Positions 4,135-12,392 are shown, counted from the stretch's first letter. The stretch: DNA of 64,000 bases from Candidatus Sysuiplasma jiujiangense (GCA_019721075.1 JAHEAD010000004.1:1-64000), one strand, 5' to 3'. A program made the numbers and translations. Notes: generated by a model from the letters alone, not told the origin.

Positions 4135-5065
4135 AATAATAAATCTGAACCGGAAGTACGGCGATTTTTCGCTCAGAGACATCAATCTGGAGATGGATGC
4201 AAAGAGAACGATGACGCTCATGGGTCCAAGCGGCTCAGGTAAAACCTCCCTCATGAGGAACATTGCGGGCTTCGACACACCGGACAGCGGCCGGATATTG
4301 ATAGATGGGGAGGACGTTACGAGAATGCCAGTCAACAAGAGGAATGTCGGAATGATATTCCAGGAACTCGCGCTTTTCCCTAATATGAGTGTATTTGACA
4401 ACATTGCGTACGGACTGAAATCGAAGAGGTTGGCAGAAAGTGAGATCAGACATGTTGTAAATTCACTCGCCTCCTCTCTGCGAATAGAGAGCCTTCTGAC
4501 AAGACGCCCGCATCAACTATCCGCAGGCGAGAGGCAGAGAACTGCTCTGGCGCGGTCTGTTGCCGTAGAACCCCGTCTTCTGTTGCTCGATGAGCCTTTC
4601 AGTTCGGTCGACAGCCACCTGAGGATTGAATTGAGAAGCGAGCTGAAAAGATTCGCATCTGAATTCGGTCTTACAATGATGTTTGTGACACATGACAGCA
4701 GAGAAGGATTTTACATGGCGGACGATGTCTGTGTAATTGATGAGGGCCTGATAATAAGGAAGGACACCCCTTTCGGGGTGTTCAACAATCCAGGAAGCGA
4801 ACAGGTAGCAACGCTCATTGGCTACAATGTAATGCTTTTGAATGGAAAGAAGATTGCCTTTTCCCCTTCAAAGGCAAAAATTTCAGAAAAAGGCGGTATA
4901 CCCGTAACGATTTTATCATCCGGATATGAGGGGGAGCAAACAAGAGTGGCCGTAAGGACAGATTCAGGACAAACAATCAACGTGTACGCCGATTCCGGCA
5001 CACACACATATGATCAGGGAAAATCCTTTTCACTTGTTATTGAGAATTATGTTGTTATTGAATAA
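4121..5065 (+). CDS. thiQ: Thiamine ABC transporter ATPase, non-ATG start
   Basis: ATPase subunit of the ThiBPQ importer. It has a Walker A GPSGSGKT, Q-loop, signature LSAGERQR, Walker B LLLLDEPF and switch His in VTHDSR, followed by a C-terminal regulatory-type domain. The first ATG (4193) leaves only nine residues before the Walker A motif and would delete the first beta-strands of the fold. The same frame is open back to a stop at 4118-4120 and encodes the expected ABC N-terminus (AFVEIINLNRKYGDFSLRD). No ATG, GTG or TTG exists in that stretch. CTG at 4121, preceded by GGGGATGG, is therefore the best candidate start. It overlaps the end of thiP by 14 nt. Confidence 0.85.
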   Translation: MAFVEIINLNRKYGDFSLRDINLEMDAKRTMTLMGPSGSGKTSLMRNIAGFDTPDSGRILIDGEDVTRMPVNKRNVGMIFQELALFPNMSVFDNIAYGLKSKRLAESEIRHVVNSLASSLRIESLLTRRPHQLSAGERQRTALARSVAVEPRLLLLDEPFSSVDSHLRIELRSELKRFASEFGLTMMFVTHDSREGFYMADDVCVIDEGLIIRKDTPFGVFNNPGSEQVATLIGYNVMLLNGKKIAFSPSKAKISEKGGIPVTILSSGYEGEQTRVAVRTDSGQTINVYADSGTHTYDQGKSFSLVIENYVVIE

Positions 5066-6075: not shown

Positions 6076-6483
6076 TCACCTGTATGACTTCTGTTTTCTC
6101 TTTCTTGCGCCTCTGCCTGCTGGATTCTTCGGGAGTTTCCTTCTTGGGTCGCTTATGAGAAGGGAACGATCATACTGCCTGAACACCTTCTCAAGTTCTT
6201 CATCTTTTAGGAATGAAACCAGGCTCTTTGCTATGGCAGTTCTGGCAGCCTCCGCCTGTCCCATAATGCCGCCGCCCATGACATCAACGGTAATGTCAAG
6301 CCCCTTCGCCTTATCACCAGCCAGCAAAACAGGTTCAAGCATTTTCCTTCTCGCAATTTCAGGATAGTGAATTTCAATGGGGATGCTGTTTACCCTAATT
6401 CTTCCTGCACCAATGCGGGCGATAGCCTTTGCCACTGCTGTCTTCCTCTTTCCGACAGTCAGAACGGGTGTGATCTCAGACAT
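6076..6483 (-). CDS. rps9: 30S ribosomal protein S9
   Basis: Small-subunit protein uS9, 135 residues. It shows the family N-terminal TVGKRKTAVAKA, central GGGIMGQAEAARTAIAKSL, and the basic tail ending in KSYR, which reaches the P-site tRNA in ribosome structures. The start codon overlaps the rpl13 stop by one base, so the two are translationally coupled. Confidence 0.97.
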   Translation of the reverse strand: MSEITPVLTVGKRKTAVAKAIARIGAGRIRVNSIPIEIHYPEIARRKMLEPVLLAGDKAKGLDITVDVMGGGIMGQAEAARTAIAKSLVSFLKDEELEKVFRQYDRSLLISDPRRKLPKNPAGRGARKRKQKSYR

Positions 6484-6902
6484 CAGTTCACCCTTGCCCC
6501 GAGCAACTTGGAAATTTCACCAAGCCGCGTATATCTTTTGCCCCTGGCCGCCTTCTGCTGGATTTCTGGTTTGGCATCCCCTATGACTCGTGGTACGCCG
6601 GTATAAACCTTGAGATTTCTGTATGCGTTTTTGCCCCTTGATGTCTTGATGGGGAGCATTCCCCTTACAGCCCTTCTAAGAATGCCGTCAGGCATCCTCG
6701 GATAATACGGTCCCTTTATTGCCTTTCCTCTCTGATAAGCTGAAAAGTATTCCTCATAACTTTTTTGAGCGGATCCGGAAATCAACACCTTTTCCGCATT
6801 GATAATTGTAATCTCTTCCCCGTTTAGAAGTCTCTTTGCTATACTGCTGGACAACCTTCCCAGAATCGCACCATCCGCATCGACAACCGCCATTTCTGCC
6901 AC
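6483..6902 (-). CDS. rpl13: 50S ribosomal protein L13
   Basis: Large-subunit protein uL13, 139 residues. It starts with VVDADGAILGRLSSSIAKRL and contains the typical GPYYPRMPDGILRRAVRGML core. It is the second gene of the L18e-L13-S9-RpoN operon, one base after rpl18e. It has the normal length for archaea. Confidence 0.97.
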   Translation of the reverse strand: MAEMAVVDADGAILGRLSSSIAKRLLNGEEITIINAEKVLISGSAQKSYEEYFSAYQRGKAIKGPYYPRMPDGILRRAVRGMLPIKTSRGKNAYRNLKVYTGVPRVIGDAKPEIQQKAARGKRYTRLGEISKLLGARVN

Positions 6903-6903
6903 C

Positions 6904-7281
6904 TCAAGCCATGAGTCTCAGACCCGAGCCTTTAGGATTCGAATTTGCAAGCGTTTCCAGGTCATGTATCTCGCATCCAGCTTTCTCCAATTTCGCTTTT
7001 GCGGAACTGGAAACAGAGTAGGCAGAAACGGTAATTTTCTTGGATATTCCACCGCTTCCAAGTACCTTCCCGGGCACTACGATTGAATCGCCATTGCTGA
7101 CAAGTCTGTCAAGACGCGAAAGGTTAACCACTGGCCTGTTTGCAAGCGGTCCCTCAAGTCTCAGTGCAACAGTTCTCCAAATAGGTGCGTTCTCCCTTGC
7201 GGATAAGTTAAAGAGTTCAGCGATCAGTCTATTGAGTTCAGGATTCGTCTTTACGTTTCTCTTTCTGCTCTTTACGCCCAT
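6904..7281 (-). CDS. rpl18e: 50S ribosomal protein L18e
   Basis: Large-subunit protein eL18, 125 residues, an archaeal/eukaryotic family. It has the family core NRPVVNLSRLDR and VVPGKVLGSGGISKKITVSA. It is the first gene of the operon, and a strong TATA element lies upstream (separate entry). It starts at the ATG giving MGVKSRKRNVK, the usual basic N-terminus. Confidence 0.97.
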   Translation of the reverse strand: MGVKSRKRNVKTNPELNRLIAELFNLSARENAPIWRTVALRLEGPLANRPVVNLSRLDRLVSNGDSIVVPGKVLGSGGISKKITVSAYSVSSSAKAKLEKAGCEIHDLETLANSNPKGSGLRLMA

Positions 7282-7888: not shown

Positions 7889-8911
7889 ATGATTCGCTTC
7901 GGTCCGTCTGGAATCCCGCTTTCCTGCAAAGGGAGGACATTGTTCGACGGCATAGAGGACGTTCACATGCTCGGGCTGACAGCCCTTGAAGTCCAGATGA
8001 TACGTAACAATATACTGCAACGTTCGCCAGATGATGAGGAAATCGGAAAACGGCCGGCTGAACTCGAGACTGACATGATTGTTCAGATTGATCGTCATGG
8101 CGGGAAAGGAACAAAGCCGATTAACGATCCTGATGAGAAGATACGCAGCGACGACACTCTGACGGTGCTTGAGAGCGGTCTGTGCCATTCATATGTTGAG
8201 TTATATGAAATGGCAGAGTATGCAAAGGATCACGACGTTCAGCTTTCGGTCCACTCATCATACTATGTCGACCTTTCGGGAAAAACTGATTTGGTGGAAC
8301 GGAGCAAGTATAATATAAAATGGGCCGGGCTGGTTTGCGCGGCGCTCGATGGTGTGGTTGTCAGTACCCAGCTGGGCTTCTATGGCAGCAAAGGAAAGAA
8401 GACCGGGACCGAGCTGATATTGAAGAATCTGAGGGACATTCGGGACTGGTGGAAGGAAAATAAGCTCAGGGCGCCGATTGGCCTTGAAACCAGCGGCAGG
8501 CAGGAAGTGTTCGGAAGTTTTGATGAAGTAATAGACACAGTGAAGAGGGTAAAGGGAACAGTTCCTGTAATCAATTTCGCTCATCTTCATTCACGCGAGG
8601 GCGGCTCGCTCAGGGAACAGGAGGATTTCAGAAGAGTAATATCCAGAGCCCAGAAGGTTTCGGAAGGACTGATTTACACTTCATTCTCAGGTGTCGAACA
8701 TCATGGTGGAAATGAACTGAGGCTCACACCGATCAAAAGGGGGGACCTTAGATTCGAACCACTCGCCGAATTAATAGTAGATGAAAACTACGAAATGACA
8801 GTGATTTCATCATCGCCTTTGCTCGAACATGATGCAATTTACATGAAAGTAATATTCGAAAGGATGCTTTCCAGACAGGTCACCAAGGAAGTCAGGGAAA
8901 AGGTTGGCTGA
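7889..8911 (+). CDS. nfo: Endonuclease IV-like AP endonuclease (TIM barrel)
   Basis: Base-excision-repair nuclease of the endonuclease IV family. It would cut the backbone 5' of abasic sites using a zinc cluster. It begins with the strand MIRFGPSGIPLSC. Metal-ligand motifs occur in barrel order: VHSSYYVDL, GLETSGRQEVFG, NFAHLHSREGG and SGVEHHGGNE. It has 340 residues, longer than the bacterial enzyme (about 280) but usual for archaeal members. AGGTGA, four bases before the ATG, supports the start. It converges with the ubiquitin-like operon, 56 bases from the JAMM stop. Confidence 0.88.
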   Translation: MIRFGPSGIPLSCKGRTLFDGIEDVHMLGLTALEVQMIRNNILQRSPDDEEIGKRPAELETDMIVQIDRHGGKGTKPINDPDEKIRSDDTLTVLESGLCHSYVELYEMAEYAKDHDVQLSVHSSYYVDLSGKTDLVERSKYNIKWAGLVCAALDGVVVSTQLGFYGSKGKKTGTELILKNLRDIRDWWKENKLRAPIGLETSGRQEVFGSFDEVIDTVKRVKGTVPVINFAHLHSREGGSLREQEDFRRVISRAQKVSEGLIYTSFSGVEHHGGNELRLTPIKRGDLRFEPLAELIVDENYEMTVISSSPLLEHDAIYMKVIFERMLSRQVTKEVREKVG

Positions 8912-8967: not shown

Positions 8968-9510
8968 CTATTTTTCGTCAAATATGCAGTAAGCAGGGCT
9001 GTAAAACATGTTACCCTTCGAAGCGAAGACTTCAAAGTTCCCGTCAGACCCTTCAATGACAAGTGCAACTGAATATGCCTGCGTGAACCATCTTTGATGT
9101 GTCCTTGTATCGGTTGAGGAAAGAAAGCAGCCCTGGCCAGTGTGGGAGTGATACCATCCGACAATAAGTTCGCCATCTCTGATGCCGATCTCAAAATTGT
9201 CTCCGGTGTCCCTGTCTATTTCGACATGGTGTGCAGTTGCGATTGCCGGTAGTTCAACGACACCGGATATCCGTATCTTCATTTTCCCTCCGGAAAGGAA
9301 TGGTCTTCCAAGCAGATAGCCGAGTGCTTCCTTTCCCTCGGAAAAGGAGGTCCTGGCGCTAGCAATCGCCTTCCTTAAGGCCTCCGAGCAAAGAAAAACA
9401 TGTATATCCCGTGGAACCGGTGAAGGGCCGTGCTGACAGCAGCCCGGTTCTTCCTCCTCAGCCATTCTGAATTCGTATCCGCTGTGTACTTCAATTGGCA
9501 TTTTTCTCAA
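8968..9510 (-). CDS. JAMM/MPN+ metalloprotease (ubiquitin-like deconjugase)
   Basis: Zinc metallopeptidase of the JAB1/MPN+ (RPN11, AMSH) fold. All ligand and catalytic positions are present: Glu61 (KEALGYLLG), then HSH at 121-123 in GWYHSHTGQGCF, Ser131 and Asp134, matching E-x(n)-H-S/T-H-x7-S-x2-D. In known systems this class cleaves after the C-terminal Gly-Gly of ubiquitin-like proteins. Here the natural substrate is the neighbouring protein, whose Gly-Gly is followed by five residues. An acidic, Cys-containing extension covers about residues 17-30. It is the last gene of the E1-Ubl-E2-JAMM operon and overlaps E2. The start is TTG at 9510, or ATG at 9501 (177 residues). Confidence 0.92.
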   Translation of the reverse strand: MRKMPIEVHSGYEFRMAEEEEPGCCQHGPSPVPRDIHVFLCSEALRKAIASARTSFSEGKEALGYLLGRPFLSGGKMKIRISGVVELPAIATAHHVEIDRDTGDNFEIGIRDGELIVGWYHSHTGQGCFLSSTDTRTHQRWFTQAYSVALVIEGSDGNFEVFASKGNMFYSPAYCIFDEK

Positions 9511-9961
9511 TTTCCGTCAAATATCTTACTGCGGATTCGCAACTTTCAAAGCCGAGCGGCTCCTTTCGGTTTGGATTTTCGACAAGATGAGCGATTCCCG
9601 CAATCAGTGAATTCAACGTTCTTTCCGTTTTCCATTCCTGAAGCAGTTTCGTGCATACGATTCCTCCATTCTCTGGCGTGCTGATATTCGGATGGAATAT
9701 TCCGGATTGCCATATTATGCCTGGCTTCAGCACAGGGTAGTCCCTGAATACCACAATTCTGAAGCGGTGATCGCTCTTTTCCACAATCTTCCCGTCTTTC
9801 ATGCGGTCCAGTCCCCTCACACCTGTAAGACGGACATCGATAGTATAAGGGAAGTTCATGCCTGGCTCATCGCTATATTCGAATTCTGCGCCCTGTATCC
9901 CCTCCAGCATTTTCAGTTCGTTTCTCAACCTTCTCTTCAGCAATTCTAAAGGGATTGCCAT
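9491..9961 (-). CDS. E2-like ubiquitin-conjugating enzyme (UBC fold)
   Basis: A 156-residue protein with the E2 signature. It has a YPVLKPGIIWQS strand pair, the HPN motif at 90-92, the candidate catalytic Cys103 in ENGGIVCTKLLQEW, and the downstream Trp110, NSLIAGIAHLVENPNRKEPL helix and PNP-like turn. It would accept the ubiquitin-like protein from the E1 as a Cys103 thioester. Its start codon lies within the last codons of the ubiquitin-like gene, whose Gly-Gly codons form its purine-rich ribosome-binding site. Genuine E2s are rare in archaea; RWD-type inactive relatives lack the Cys, which is present here. Confidence 0.93.
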   Translation of the reverse strand: MAIPLELLKRRLRNELKMLEGIQGAEFEYSDEPGMNFPYTIDVRLTGVRGLDRMKDGKIVEKSDHRFRIVVFRDYPVLKPGIIWQSGIFHPNISTPENGGIVCTKLLQEWKTERTLNSLIAGIAHLVENPNRKEPLGFESCESAVRYLTEIEKNAN

Positions 9962-10203
9962 TGTCCTCCCTCGGGATCGGGAAGAAGGTCGATCGTATCA
10001 CCGTCATTGAGGCTTGCTTCCGAAACGGTTTTAGATGCCGAAACAAGTTTCTTTCCCACCTTCATTAGATAAGGTTCATCAGGCAATTCCCAGAACTCCA
10101 CTGCACTGTCCAGAACTTCCTGCAGTTTTGTGGAGTTGTCTACTTCCATAAGTGCACTGTTTCCCGTTTGCGTATTTCTTACGCTCAGTTTCATAGTTTT
10201 CAT
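9946..10203 (-). CDS. Ubiquitin-like modifier with C-terminal Gly-Gly plus tail
   Basis: An 85-residue protein with beta-grasp character: MKLSVRNTQTG hairpin, a central helix KLQEVLDSAVEFW, then GKKLVSASKTVSEASLNDGDTIDLLP, like ubiquitin's last strands. It ends in LLPDPEGGQWQSL, so a Gly-Gly at 79-80 is followed by QWQSL. The tail would have to be removed before activation, the job of the JAMM protease in the same operon. It starts directly after the E1 stop with GGAAGG upstream. It could be called a SAMP/MoaD relative, but the E2 next door argues for a protein modifier rather than only a sulfur carrier. Confidence 0.9.
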   Translation of the reverse strand: MKTMKLSVRNTQTGNSALMEVDNSTKLQEVLDSAVEFWELPDEPYLMKVGKKLVSASKTVSEASLNDGDTIDLLPDPEGGQWQSL

Positions 10204-11010
10204 TTATATCCTTCCATGGTTCTGACAATTTGGATTCACTTCAGCCACAATCTCCTCAATGCTGGTCGTCATTCCGTCGAACATCATAAGAACGCCGTTC
10301 TGCCTGATGCCTGAAATTATCTTTATGGCCTCAAGAGACTGGACAGATCCTATGATTCCCGGAATAGACGGCTCCGAGCCAATGTGCCGGGAGTAGGCAT
10401 TCGCTTCTCTGCCCGTGCACGTGTATGTGCGGTCAATCGTAGACAGGTGGCTGCCATTCACGGTGCACTCATAGCAGGCACCTGCAGGTGGTATAACGAC
10501 CTGCACGCGTCCGATCAGGCCGTCTATGCCGCCGTCGACGTAGGGAGTTCCGGCGAAAAAACAGTTTGAGTTGATATGGAGCCTCGTTTTCACCGAATCA
10601 ACACACCCTATTACGAGGGTGTATTTTGAAAAGAAGGTGTAATTCAGTCGCTCCGCATCCGTACGCATTGCCCGCAGGTTGCAGTCAGGATTAATCTCTC
10701 TCGCTCTTGAACGCACGACCTCTACCTTGCTTCTGGACTTATCCGCGTCCGCCCTGCTGAACAAAAAGCAGCGCCCAAGATTTGTAGTTTCAACCACGTC
10801 CCTGTCAACGACCGTAATCTGAGAAGGAGCATAGAGCACCAGGTTTTTGACAACCTCATTCCCGAGCGCACCCGCTCCTATGATGCATATCCTGGAAGAC
10901 TGCACTGCATCGAGATCAATTCCATCCACCAGCCTGACGCGCGAATACCTGTCCGCGCTTTTCAGCATGTTCTGTGTTCTGCTCACTTCTGCCCGAATGC
11001 ACTTATCCAT
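10204..11010 (-). CDS. E1-like ubiquitin-activating enzyme (ThiF/MoeB fold)
   Basis: Adenylating enzyme of the ThiF/MoeB/E1 superfamily, 268 residues, single domain. It has the nucleotide loop GAGALG (45-50), acidic VVDRDVVETTNLGRC (67-81, with the Arg finger), K91/K95 in DADKSRSKVE and Asp138 in GCVDSVKTR. A zinc site is formed by CYEC (179-182) and CQNH (262-265), so the fourth ligand would be His instead of the usual Cys. Cys198 in TYTCTG, just before GIIGSVQSLEAIK, is the likely thioester cysteine by alignment with MoeB. It is the first gene of the four-gene operon. A TATATAA directly before ATG 11010 suggests translation may instead begin at Met15 (10968). Confidence 0.93.
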   Translation of the reverse strand: MDKCIRAEVSRTQNMLKSADRYSRVRLVDGIDLDAVQSSRICIIGAGALGNEVVKNLVLYAPSQITVVDRDVVETTNLGRCFLFSRADADKSRSKVEVVRSRAREINPDCNLRAMRTDAERLNYTFFSKYTLVIGCVDSVKTRLHINSNCFFAGTPYVDGGIDGLIGRVQVVIPPAGACYECTVNGSHLSTIDRTYTCTGREANAYSRHIGSEPSIPGIIGSVQSLEAIKIISGIRQNGVLMMFDGMTTSIEEIVAEVNPNCQNHGRI

Positions 11011-11267: not shown

Positions 11268-12392
11268 ATGACTGGTGATTTTGTTGTCACGCCATGGGAG
11301 GTGCGTGGCGAAGTCGATTATGACAAACTGGTGAGCCGGTTTGGCACTTCCTATATTACGGCGGACTTGATAAGGAGGATACCAGGTGGAGAGAATAATA
11401 TTTTCCTGCAGAGGAAAATATTTTATTCCCATCGGGATCTTGACTGGATACTCCTCAATTATGAGAAAGGGAAGAGGTTCTATCTGTACACAGGAAGGGG
11501 CCCGTCAAGCGGCACTCATATTGGCCACATGATACCCTGGATTTTCACCAGACAGATGCAGGAAGCTTTCAATTCAAAACTGTATTTTCAGATGACGGAT
11601 GATGAAAAATTTCTATTCAAGGAAAATCTGACGCTCGAAGACACTCGAAAATCGACCTTTGACAACATACTTGATTTTATTGCGCTTGGTTTCGATCCTG
11701 CAAGGACCAAGATAGTCATCGACACTAAGGATATCTCCTTACTCTACAGGACAGCTCTGAAGGTTTCGAAGAGAGTTACGTTTTCAACCGCAAAGGCCGT
11801 GTTCGGCTTCGACAACAGCACAAATATAGGATCCATATTCTTCACATCTATTCAGTCAGTCCCGGCCTTCCTCGAATCAGAACTTAAGGGCGAAAACGTG
11901 CCCTGCCTTATTCCATGCGGCATTGACCAGGATCCTCATTTCAGGGTAACAAGAGATGTGGCCCCCGCACTGGGCTACTTTAAACCCGCGCTTATACACT
12001 GCAAGATGCTTCCAGGTCTGACGGGAGGCAAAATGTCAAGCACCGGGGAGGCTGCGATATACACAACCGACACGGATGCTGCAATCACGAAAAAGATAAT
12101 GAACGCGTTTACGGGCGGCAGGGCAACGGTCGAGGAGCAGAGAAGACTTGGCGCGAACCCAGACATCTGTCCGGTCTATCACCATTATGAGTTTCTTTTC
12201 GAACCTGATCCGGCAAAACTGAAGAAGATTGAAGAGGACTGCAGGAGCGGCGCCCTGCTCTGTGGCGATTGCAAGGCGAACCTTCTGTCAAAGGTGAAGC
12301 TTTTCATGACTCAACACAGAAAGAACAGGGAACGTGCCTCCGAGATTGTGGATGATTTCATGCTCAGCGCAAAGGGACTGGAGGAAGGGTGA
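11268..12392 (+). CDS. trpS: Tryptophan--tRNA ligase
   Basis: Class I aminoacyl-tRNA synthetase, 374 residues, charging tRNA-Trp. It has the archaeal/eukaryotic-type N-terminal extension (TPWEV), the signature HIGH at 84-87 in GPSSGTHIGH, QMTDDEKFLF, and the KMSKS equivalent GGKMSS at 253-258. The archaeal form lacks the bacterial compact N-terminus, as here. It heads a pair with pheS, which starts just after its stop. Confidence 0.96.
   Translation: MTGDFVVTPWEVRGEVDYDKLVSRFGTSYITADLIRRIPGGENNIFLQRKIFYSHRDLDWILLNYEKGKRFYLYTGRGPSSGTHIGHMIPWIFTRQMQEAFNSKLYFQMTDDEKFLFKENLTLEDTRKSTFDNILDFIALGFDPARTKIVIDTKDISLLYRTALKVSKRVTFSTAKAVFGFDNSTNIGSIFFTSIQSVPAFLESELKGENVPCLIPCGIDQDPHFRVTRDVAPALGYFKPALIHCKMLPGLTGGKMSSTGEAAIYTTDTDAAITKKIMNAFTGGRATVEEQRRLGANPDICPVYHHYEFLFEPDPAKLKKIEEDCRSGALLCGDCKANLLSKVKLFMTQHRKNRERASEIVDDFMLSAKGLEEG

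Follow-up and report, generated by a model that had tools for sequence, protein, structure and literature searches.

The genome of Candidatus Sysuiplasma jiujiangense carries an operon of four genes, coding for an E1-like activating enzyme, a ubiquitin-like modifier (Ubl), an E2 conjugating enzyme and a JAMM protease, which very probably form a dedicated, reversible system for covalent Ubl conjugation. The protein families, folds and catalytic residues of the four products all support this prediction. The operon lies in a 64,000 nt stretch of the genome (GCA_019721075.1, JAHEAD010000004.1:1–64000), referred to here as the window. It is a real unit: the same four genes, in the order E1-Ubl-E2-JAMM, were present at most of the 60 E2 loci of the class that were fetched first, and this conservation among relatives excludes chance as the origin of the gene set. 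A Ubl, an E1, an E2 and an Rpn11-like JAMM are also encoded together in the eukaryote-like ubiquitin systems of archaea.

Gene layout and protein families of the operon

An ORF check recovered all four genes on the minus strand, at the positions given in the initial annotation (Table 1). The E1 stop and the Ubl start abut (10204/10203) and the Ubl and E2 ORFs overlap by 16 nt, as that annotation had described. Its overlap of 20 nt between E2 and JAMM depends on a TTG start of the JAMM ORF. An in-frame ATG at 9501 is the more likely start, judged by its better fit to relatives, and would shorten this overlap to 11 nt. The E1 may begin at Met15, because a TATA-like sequence (TATATAA) abuts the first ATG. 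A Shine-Dalgarno-like GGAAGG is found upstream of the Ubl gene.

Table 1. Operon genes and conserved neighbours in the window.
Feature	Position	Strand	Remarks
Ribosomal S9	6076–6483	minus	named from sequence
Ribosomal L13	6483–6902	minus	named from sequence
Ribosomal L18e	6904–7281	minus	named from sequence
AP_endonuc_2 / xylose-isomerase-like TIM barrel	7889–8911	plus	Pfam 45.5 bits; convergent with operon
JAMM/MPN+ metalloprotease, Rpn11-like	8968–9510	minus	JAB 42 bits
E2 conjugating enzyme	9491–9961	minus	UBC fold; UQ_con 45.7 bits
Ubiquitin-like modifier (Ubl)	9946–10203	minus	85 aa precursor, ending PDPEGG then QWQSL
E1-like activating enzyme	10204–11010	minus	268 aa, single adenylation domain; ThiF PF00899 170 bits
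TrpRS/TyrRS-type aminoacyl-tRNA synthetase	11268–12392	plus	tRNA-synt_1b 93 bits; divergent from operon

The family assignments made at the outset (E1-like adenylator, UBC-type E2, JAMM+ protease and a ubiquitin-like protein ending in Gly-Gly plus a tail) were borne out for all four products. The ThiF, UQ_con and JAB scores of the E1, E2 and JAMM each exceed the curated Pfam cut-off. The Ubl gave Pfam matches to Rad60-SLD, ubiquitin and ThiS, all of them sub-threshold, and its profile similarity to ubiquitin is weak per domain, the low E-values arising from repeated domains. Its AlphaFold model (pLDDT 87.5) was matched by Foldseek against the PDB to SUMO and ubiquitin, including the ubiquitin of C. 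subterraneum (6fno, TM 0.80), and model, structural matches and alignment together confirm a beta-grasp fold with a C-terminal GG.

The adenylation domain of the E1 carries an ATP motif (GAGALGNE at residue 45) and zinc ligands (CxxC 179/182, CxxH 262/265), as in E1s of the Ub/Ubl type. A PDB profile search matched Uba1, UBA3 and SAE2 over the adenylation core, down to 2e-47, and MoeB, ThiF and UBA5 over the full length. The cysteine of a (F/Y)SC(T/S)G motif (C198) lies in the crossover-loop region and is invariant in 19 E1 relatives, making it a candidate for the crossover-loop thioester cysteine. Tandem adenylation domains of the Uba1 type, SCCH/FCCH domains and a UFD were not found in this 268 aa protein, which has one ThiF domain. 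It is without the domains by which Uba1 recruits E2 (no UFD), so that its architecture does not account for E1-E2 contact, a point that weighs against the conjugation reading.

The fold of the E2 had been named beforehand as a point on which the reading could fall, and the protein was found to lie inside the UBC fold. Its AlphaFold model has a pLDDT of 92, the 50 best Foldseek matches listed from the PDB were all UBC E2s (with moderate TM values of 0.61–0.71), and a PDB profile search returned UBE2E1 and UBE2A at 1e-14. No other protein of the 2.29-Mb genome matches UQ_con. The characteristic residues are present (H90-P91-N92, a catalytic-type Cys103, and W110), and the alignment of 29 sequences has 19 invariant columns, HPN and C103 among them. 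Cys103 is the predicted thioester site.

In the modifier, G79-G80 is followed by a 5 aa tail (QWQSL), and P75, D76, P77, G79 and G80 are invariant in 31 relatives. With no Lys or Arg close to the GG, trypsin would leave a long remnant of it on a target. A wider set of 146 Ubl sequences includes 139 with the PxPxGG motif and seven in which it is absent; 67 of the 146 terminate exactly at GG and 72 have a tail of 1–15 residues. In f25 and f28, the Ubl has N-terminal zinc ribbons and a DUF835 domain, and the JAMM has a long coiled coil.

The JAMM protein has a complete metal-site motif (E61, H121-x-H123-x7-S131-x2-D134), which is degenerate in one relative (L052). By PDB profile search it is nearest to Rpn11 (1.6e-26), followed by the Rpn11 of C. 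subterraneum (2.6e-22) and CSN5 (2.2e-20), and the NCBIfam desampylase model matches it weakly (27.5 bits, cut-off 130). Trimming of the modifier by this protease, as proposed initially, is not its sole likely role, considering the 67 relatives whose Ubl already ends at GG. Retention of the JAMM where the Ubl needs no trimming makes a deconjugating role likely.

Distribution, gene setting and descent

A scan using the single window E2 sequence found nothing, its patterns being too specific, while an alignment-based scan gave 296 loci. The E2 was detected in all eight genomes of the order, and in 121 of the 400 genomes of the class (about 30%), spread over 43 of 105 genera, so the expectation that such a gene set would be rare or unique in this class did not hold. 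With the E2 profile, about 25 genomes in other classes of the phylum scored above 180 bits, and most of the loci fetched from those classes had Ubl, E2 and JAMM together. The E2 matches include Methanomassiliicoccales and other Thermoplasmata/Thermoplasmatota, and the carriers probably include Methanomassiliicoccales gut methanogens in enrichment culture.

The surroundings of the operon are also conserved. In several families, it has PheRS/TrpRS genes on one side and, on the other, SIS and TIM-barrel genes together with the ribosomal L18e-L13-S9-RpoN run. In the window, a PheRS-family gene comes after the TrpRS/TyrRS-type gene, and the same neighbours occur in many relatives. The L18e-L13-S9 run (6076–7281) closes this conserved neighbourhood on its far side, and corresponds to clusters F5, F8 and F10 in relatives. 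The TIM-barrel gene is a neighbour outside the machinery. Its sequence cluster (F0, which may over-merge) was found in 94 of the loci compared, and a functional link of the operon to the TIM-barrel and SIS genes was set aside, as the synteny resembles a conserved housekeeping setting.

A tree of the four joined proteins required 14 changes for 15 families, which is the minimum, and was congruent with taxonomy; the family of the window (f1) forms its most divergent branch. The fixed gene setting and the family-congruent tree point to an old operon, passed on vertically and lost many times, rather than to a mobile island. Linkage has loosened in places: in f11 and f16 the E1 is unlinked to the operon, yet present in the genome (386–400 bits). 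In f7, one Ubl-E2 fusion lacks both the GG and the catalytic cysteine, which is lost only in the fusion proteins of this family. No E1 or JAMM adjoins it and the f7 genomes have only distant E1 relatives (≤123 bits), so that, on the sequences, the catalytic parts appear to have been lost together, which speaks for the conjugation reading.

A RING-zinc-ribbon protein beside ftsZ and psmA

No RING protein is encoded within the window operon or beside it, and searching the order with zf-RING_2 gave nothing above the cut-off but did return a weak match beside ftsZ. On the contig of the window, this weak match is a 234 aa protein encoded 61 kb outside the window, and its sequence CILC-x11-CDCGANYHRGC-x6-CSRC is followed by zinc ribbons. 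Across ten sequences, the RING-like finger keeps nine invariant columns and a C4HC3 pattern; it is below the cut-offs of both zf-RING_2 and Prok-RING_1. This RING-zinc-ribbon protein is probably the missing E3. The set described as complete in the initial annotation does comprise its four genes, but that description understated the system, with a likely E3 elsewhere on the same contig.

In the genome of the window, the RING gene, ftsZ and psmA (20S proteasome alpha) lie on one strand at 122,475–125,571 of the contig, the RING gene at about 124,875–125,571, with ftsZ and psmA assigned by Pfam. This three-gene array was seen in f1 and f14, the pair RING-ftsZ in f20, f30, f32 and f33, and the pair RING-psmA in f6, while in f3 and f19 the RING gene adjoins a convergent ftsZ. 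E2-negative genomes (L324, L326 and L335) have a psmA-ftsZ pair with no RING gene beside psmA, so the array in itself is no proof of function. Within f6, the psmA locus was fetched from ten E2-negative genomes and no RING gene was present at it; the E2-negative loci of this family that were read in detail have the same hdrA-like flank as is found beside RING-psmA in E2-positive relatives.

The finger and the E2 tend to occur in the same genomes. A 43-position finger profile matched 120 of 121 E2-positive and 76 of 279 E2-negative genomes, and the small RING-ribbon form, counting only matches that cover the RING part, was found in 92/121 and 5/279, respectively; both profiles drew on E2-positive genomes alone, and shared ancestry inflates these counts. 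The five E2-negative genomes with the small form all come from families in which E2 is otherwise present. A combined RING and ribbon profile (A8, at 1e-6) was discarded because zinc ribbons alone match it, giving 336 of 400 genomes. In a tree of psmA, E2 switches between present and absent six times, and RING co-varies in all three of the well-supported pairs (six when all branches are taken), a hand-picked sample of 3–6 independent pairs that cannot reach p < 0.05.

In other classes, giant coiled-coil proteins encoded immediately upstream of Ubl-E2-JAMM (L211, L213 and L226) end in the same finger, and one such protein adjoins the Ubl-E2 fusion of f7. As a general E3, these giant proteins were set aside as unspecific, since they also occur in E2-negative families.

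It is possible, if rather doubtful, that conjugation proceeds here without an E3 and that the RING-zinc-ribbon protein by ftsZ is unrelated, sharing with the operon only an ancestry of gene content. E2s can act alone, RING-like fingers are found in the coiled-coil proteins of E2-negative families, the independent co-losses number just 3–6, and the RING falls below Pfam cut-offs. Against these stand the strong skew of the small RING-ribbon form towards E2-positive genomes and the position of RING-bearing coiled-coil genes, directly upstream of Ubl-E2-JAMM and beside the f7 fusion.

Proposed pathway and relation to known systems

Two further readings concern the operon itself. The Ubl might be a sulfur carrier like MoaD, ThiS or SAMP2 that the E1 converts to a thiocarboxylate, and modify proteins only as a side role. 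Archaeal SAMPs act in both sulfur transfer and protein modification, and the full-length architecture of the E1 is MoeB/ThiF-like, with its CxxC...CxxH zinc ligands. Even so, this reading is very unlikely: sulfur transfer would have no use for a UBC E2 and an Rpn11-like JAMM, a ThiS-ThiF fusion ORF of 508 aa (MoaD-MoeB-type) and three other ThiS-family proteins above the cut-off are encoded separately in the genome, the Ubl itself scores 14 bits against ThiS (cut-off 22.5) and has a SUMO/Ub-like fold, and the E1 is far below the cut-offs of the NCBIfam SAMP-E1 and MoeB equivalog models. It is more improbable still that the genes are a bacterial-type antiviral Ubl module (Bil, CBASS Cap2/Cap3 or 6A/6E) acquired by gene transfer. 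The E1 does match PADLOC E1-E2 models (up to 45 bits, for a generic E1 domain), but the E2, Ubl and JAMM have no PADLOC match, the E2 has an HPN motif, the operon keeps its housekeeping setting between TrpRS/PheRS and L18e-L13-S9, and its occurrence almost throughout the order and its descent in step with the families are unlike those of a patchy defence island.

Under the preferred reading, reversible Ubl conjugation, the JAMM would remove QWQSL from the Ubl precursor and expose Gly80, which the minimal E1 would adenylate with ATP, probably followed by a thioester on Cys198. The Ubl would then pass to Cys103 of the E2 and be joined to lysines of target proteins, with the RING-zinc-ribbon protein beside ftsZ and psmA probably serving as E3 for the transfer, and the JAMM would also take the tag off its targets. 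Sequence comparison and structure prediction show the folds, the catalytic residues, the operon, its orthology across the phylum and its co-distribution with the RING protein; the chemical steps (from protein families), the E3 role of the RING protein, a hand-over to the 20S proteasome and the substrates are all inferred. It is only gene order and the Rpn11-like JAMM that suggest the proteasome link, and FtsZ as a substrate is speculation. In its furthest form, the proposal would be that the ancestor of Thermoplasmatota had a full pathway of E1, E2, RING E3, Ubl and Rpn11-like DUB tied to the 20S proteasome, and that the RING protein of the RING-ftsZ-psmA array marks FtsZ or the division site for Ubl-directed degradation. 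This is unlikely, but if true, cell division would be controlled by a ubiquitin-proteasome route in a lineage other than the Asgard/eukaryote branch.

Accounts of complete ubiquitin-like pathways in archaea usually centre on Caldiarchaeum/Aigarchaeota and the Asgard group, seen as stages on the way to eukaryotes. The E1-Ubl-E2-JAMM set of Thermoplasmatota, inherited vertically and co-distributed with a RING protein, would make such pathways more widespread in archaea, and with a minimal E1. The RING-ftsZ-psmA array offers a concrete first hypothesis on the purpose of archaeal Ubl conjugation, and as the phylum includes gut methanogens, this purpose could then be asked in living cells.

Among single-domain E1 systems, a close parallel is UFM1 (UBA5-UFC1), as UBA5 is a single-domain E1 with a crossover-loop cysteine and is matched in the PDB over the full length of the E1 described here. 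UFM1-specific proteases are cysteine proteases, whereas the candidate deconjugase here is a JAMM, and the E2 is a canonical UBC protein with HPN. The SAMP/UbaA/HvJAMM1 system of Haloferax has an archaeal Ubl, E1 and JAMM and reversibility in common with the present one, but is without E2 or RING. An E1, Ubl, E2 and JAMM set is likewise shared with the bacterial Bil operons (BilABCD; PMC11354881) and those of Iyer et al. 2006 (PMC1779556); two Ubl domains are present in BilA and a CEHH motif in BilB (PMC11354881), in contrast to the single Ubl and HPN-type E2 found here, and the bacterial operons differ from the housekeeping setting and archaeal vertical descent of the present genes.

Makarova and Koonin 2010 (PMC2948915) reported no archaeal E2, and Grau-Bove 2014 (PMC4327156) listed, for Euryarchaeota, UCH/RING genes from a single MGII genome. 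The open literature gave no report of the system in Thermoplasmata or Methanomassiliicoccales, of its phylum-wide spread or of a RING partner, although prior mention in subscription papers, preprints or supplements is possible. The JAMM-3 group of Fuchs et al. 2018 (PMC6043591), described in the main text as prokaryotic JAMMs closer to Rpn11/CSN5, may include the operon JAMM; that main-text description gives no taxa, distribution, synteny or RING.

Working E1/E2/RING/Ub/Rpn11 systems have been described in the archaeon C. subterraneum (PMC5654768, PMC6043591), and Asgard archaea are known to have complete sets. Shared with these are a Ub-fold modifier with a tailed GG, an E1, an E2 with HPN and cysteine, an Rpn11-like JAMM, a RING-type protein and the operon arrangement. 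The present E1 differs in being a single adenylation domain (about 268 aa) with no catalytic-Cys insert domain, the JAMM gene shares the strand of the others and ends the operon, and the Ubl is only distantly ubiquitin-like. The gene for the RING protein (srfp in the known systems) stands apart from the operon here, next to ftsZ and psmA. With this one feature of the C. subterraneum type missing (a RING gene in or next to the operon), the statement that the present system works like those systems is stronger than the statement that it is one of them. Its predicted chemistry is the same, and it is set apart by a one-domain E1, an Rpn11-like JAMM inside the operon and a RING protein encoded outside it.

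Genes adjoining the operon and a RING-like gene on the same contig

The presence of a gene for a RING-like and zinc-ribbon protein, the candidate E3 of the Ubl system, follows that of the E2 across the class. On the contig that holds the window, this gene lies in a co-directional array (see table).

At about 20 loci of family f3 (L059–L061 and relatives), a protein of about 390 aa (sequence cluster F12), predicted to be secreted or membrane-bound, is encoded 3′ of the JAMM gene on the same strand. Family f18 (L071, L072, L096) carries a squalene-hopene-cyclase-like gene on the opposite strand, between E1 and Ubl.

Features located in the window, on its contig and in a relative
Feature	Location	Remarks
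Endonuclease IV/xylose-isomerase-like TIM barrel	window 7889–8911	convergent with operon; adjacency conserved
RING-like + zinc-ribbon gene, ftsZ, proteasome alpha gene	G000 (genome of the window), contig C4, ~122,475–125,571 (L323)	co-directional array; outside window
JAMM homologue without metal site	L052 (G056, another E2-positive genome), 4380–4781	VGWFKS in place of VGWYHSH

Loss of catalytic residues and RING-like fingers

Despite the lost JAMM metal site at L052, the E1, the Ubl GG and the E2 Cys are all kept. In family f7 (L062, L063, L090, L097), Ubl and E2 are fused into proteins of 220–228 aa in which both the GG and the catalytic Cys are absent: a non-catalytic relic, either degenerate or repurposed. 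These fusions adjoin a giant coiled-coil protein with a RING-like finger at its end. Giant proteins (>1,200 to 2,700 aa), comprising coiled-coil unit repeats and then a terminal RING-like finger, are also encoded directly upstream of Ubl-E2-JAMM at L211, L213, L226, L231 and L238.

Variant architectures and a second set

At L075 and L076 (families f25 and f28), zinc ribbons and DUF835 precede Ubl in one fusion protein, JAMM is fused with a coiled coil (400–650 aa), and E1 is the last gene in order. A second, distinct E1/E2/JAMM/Ubl set is found in a few genomes of the phylum (L067, L068 and L069 of family f15; L227, L228). Its proteins are larger, its Ubl is of LDI(V/I)GG type, and by score (84 bits) it lies closer to eukaryotic UBC.
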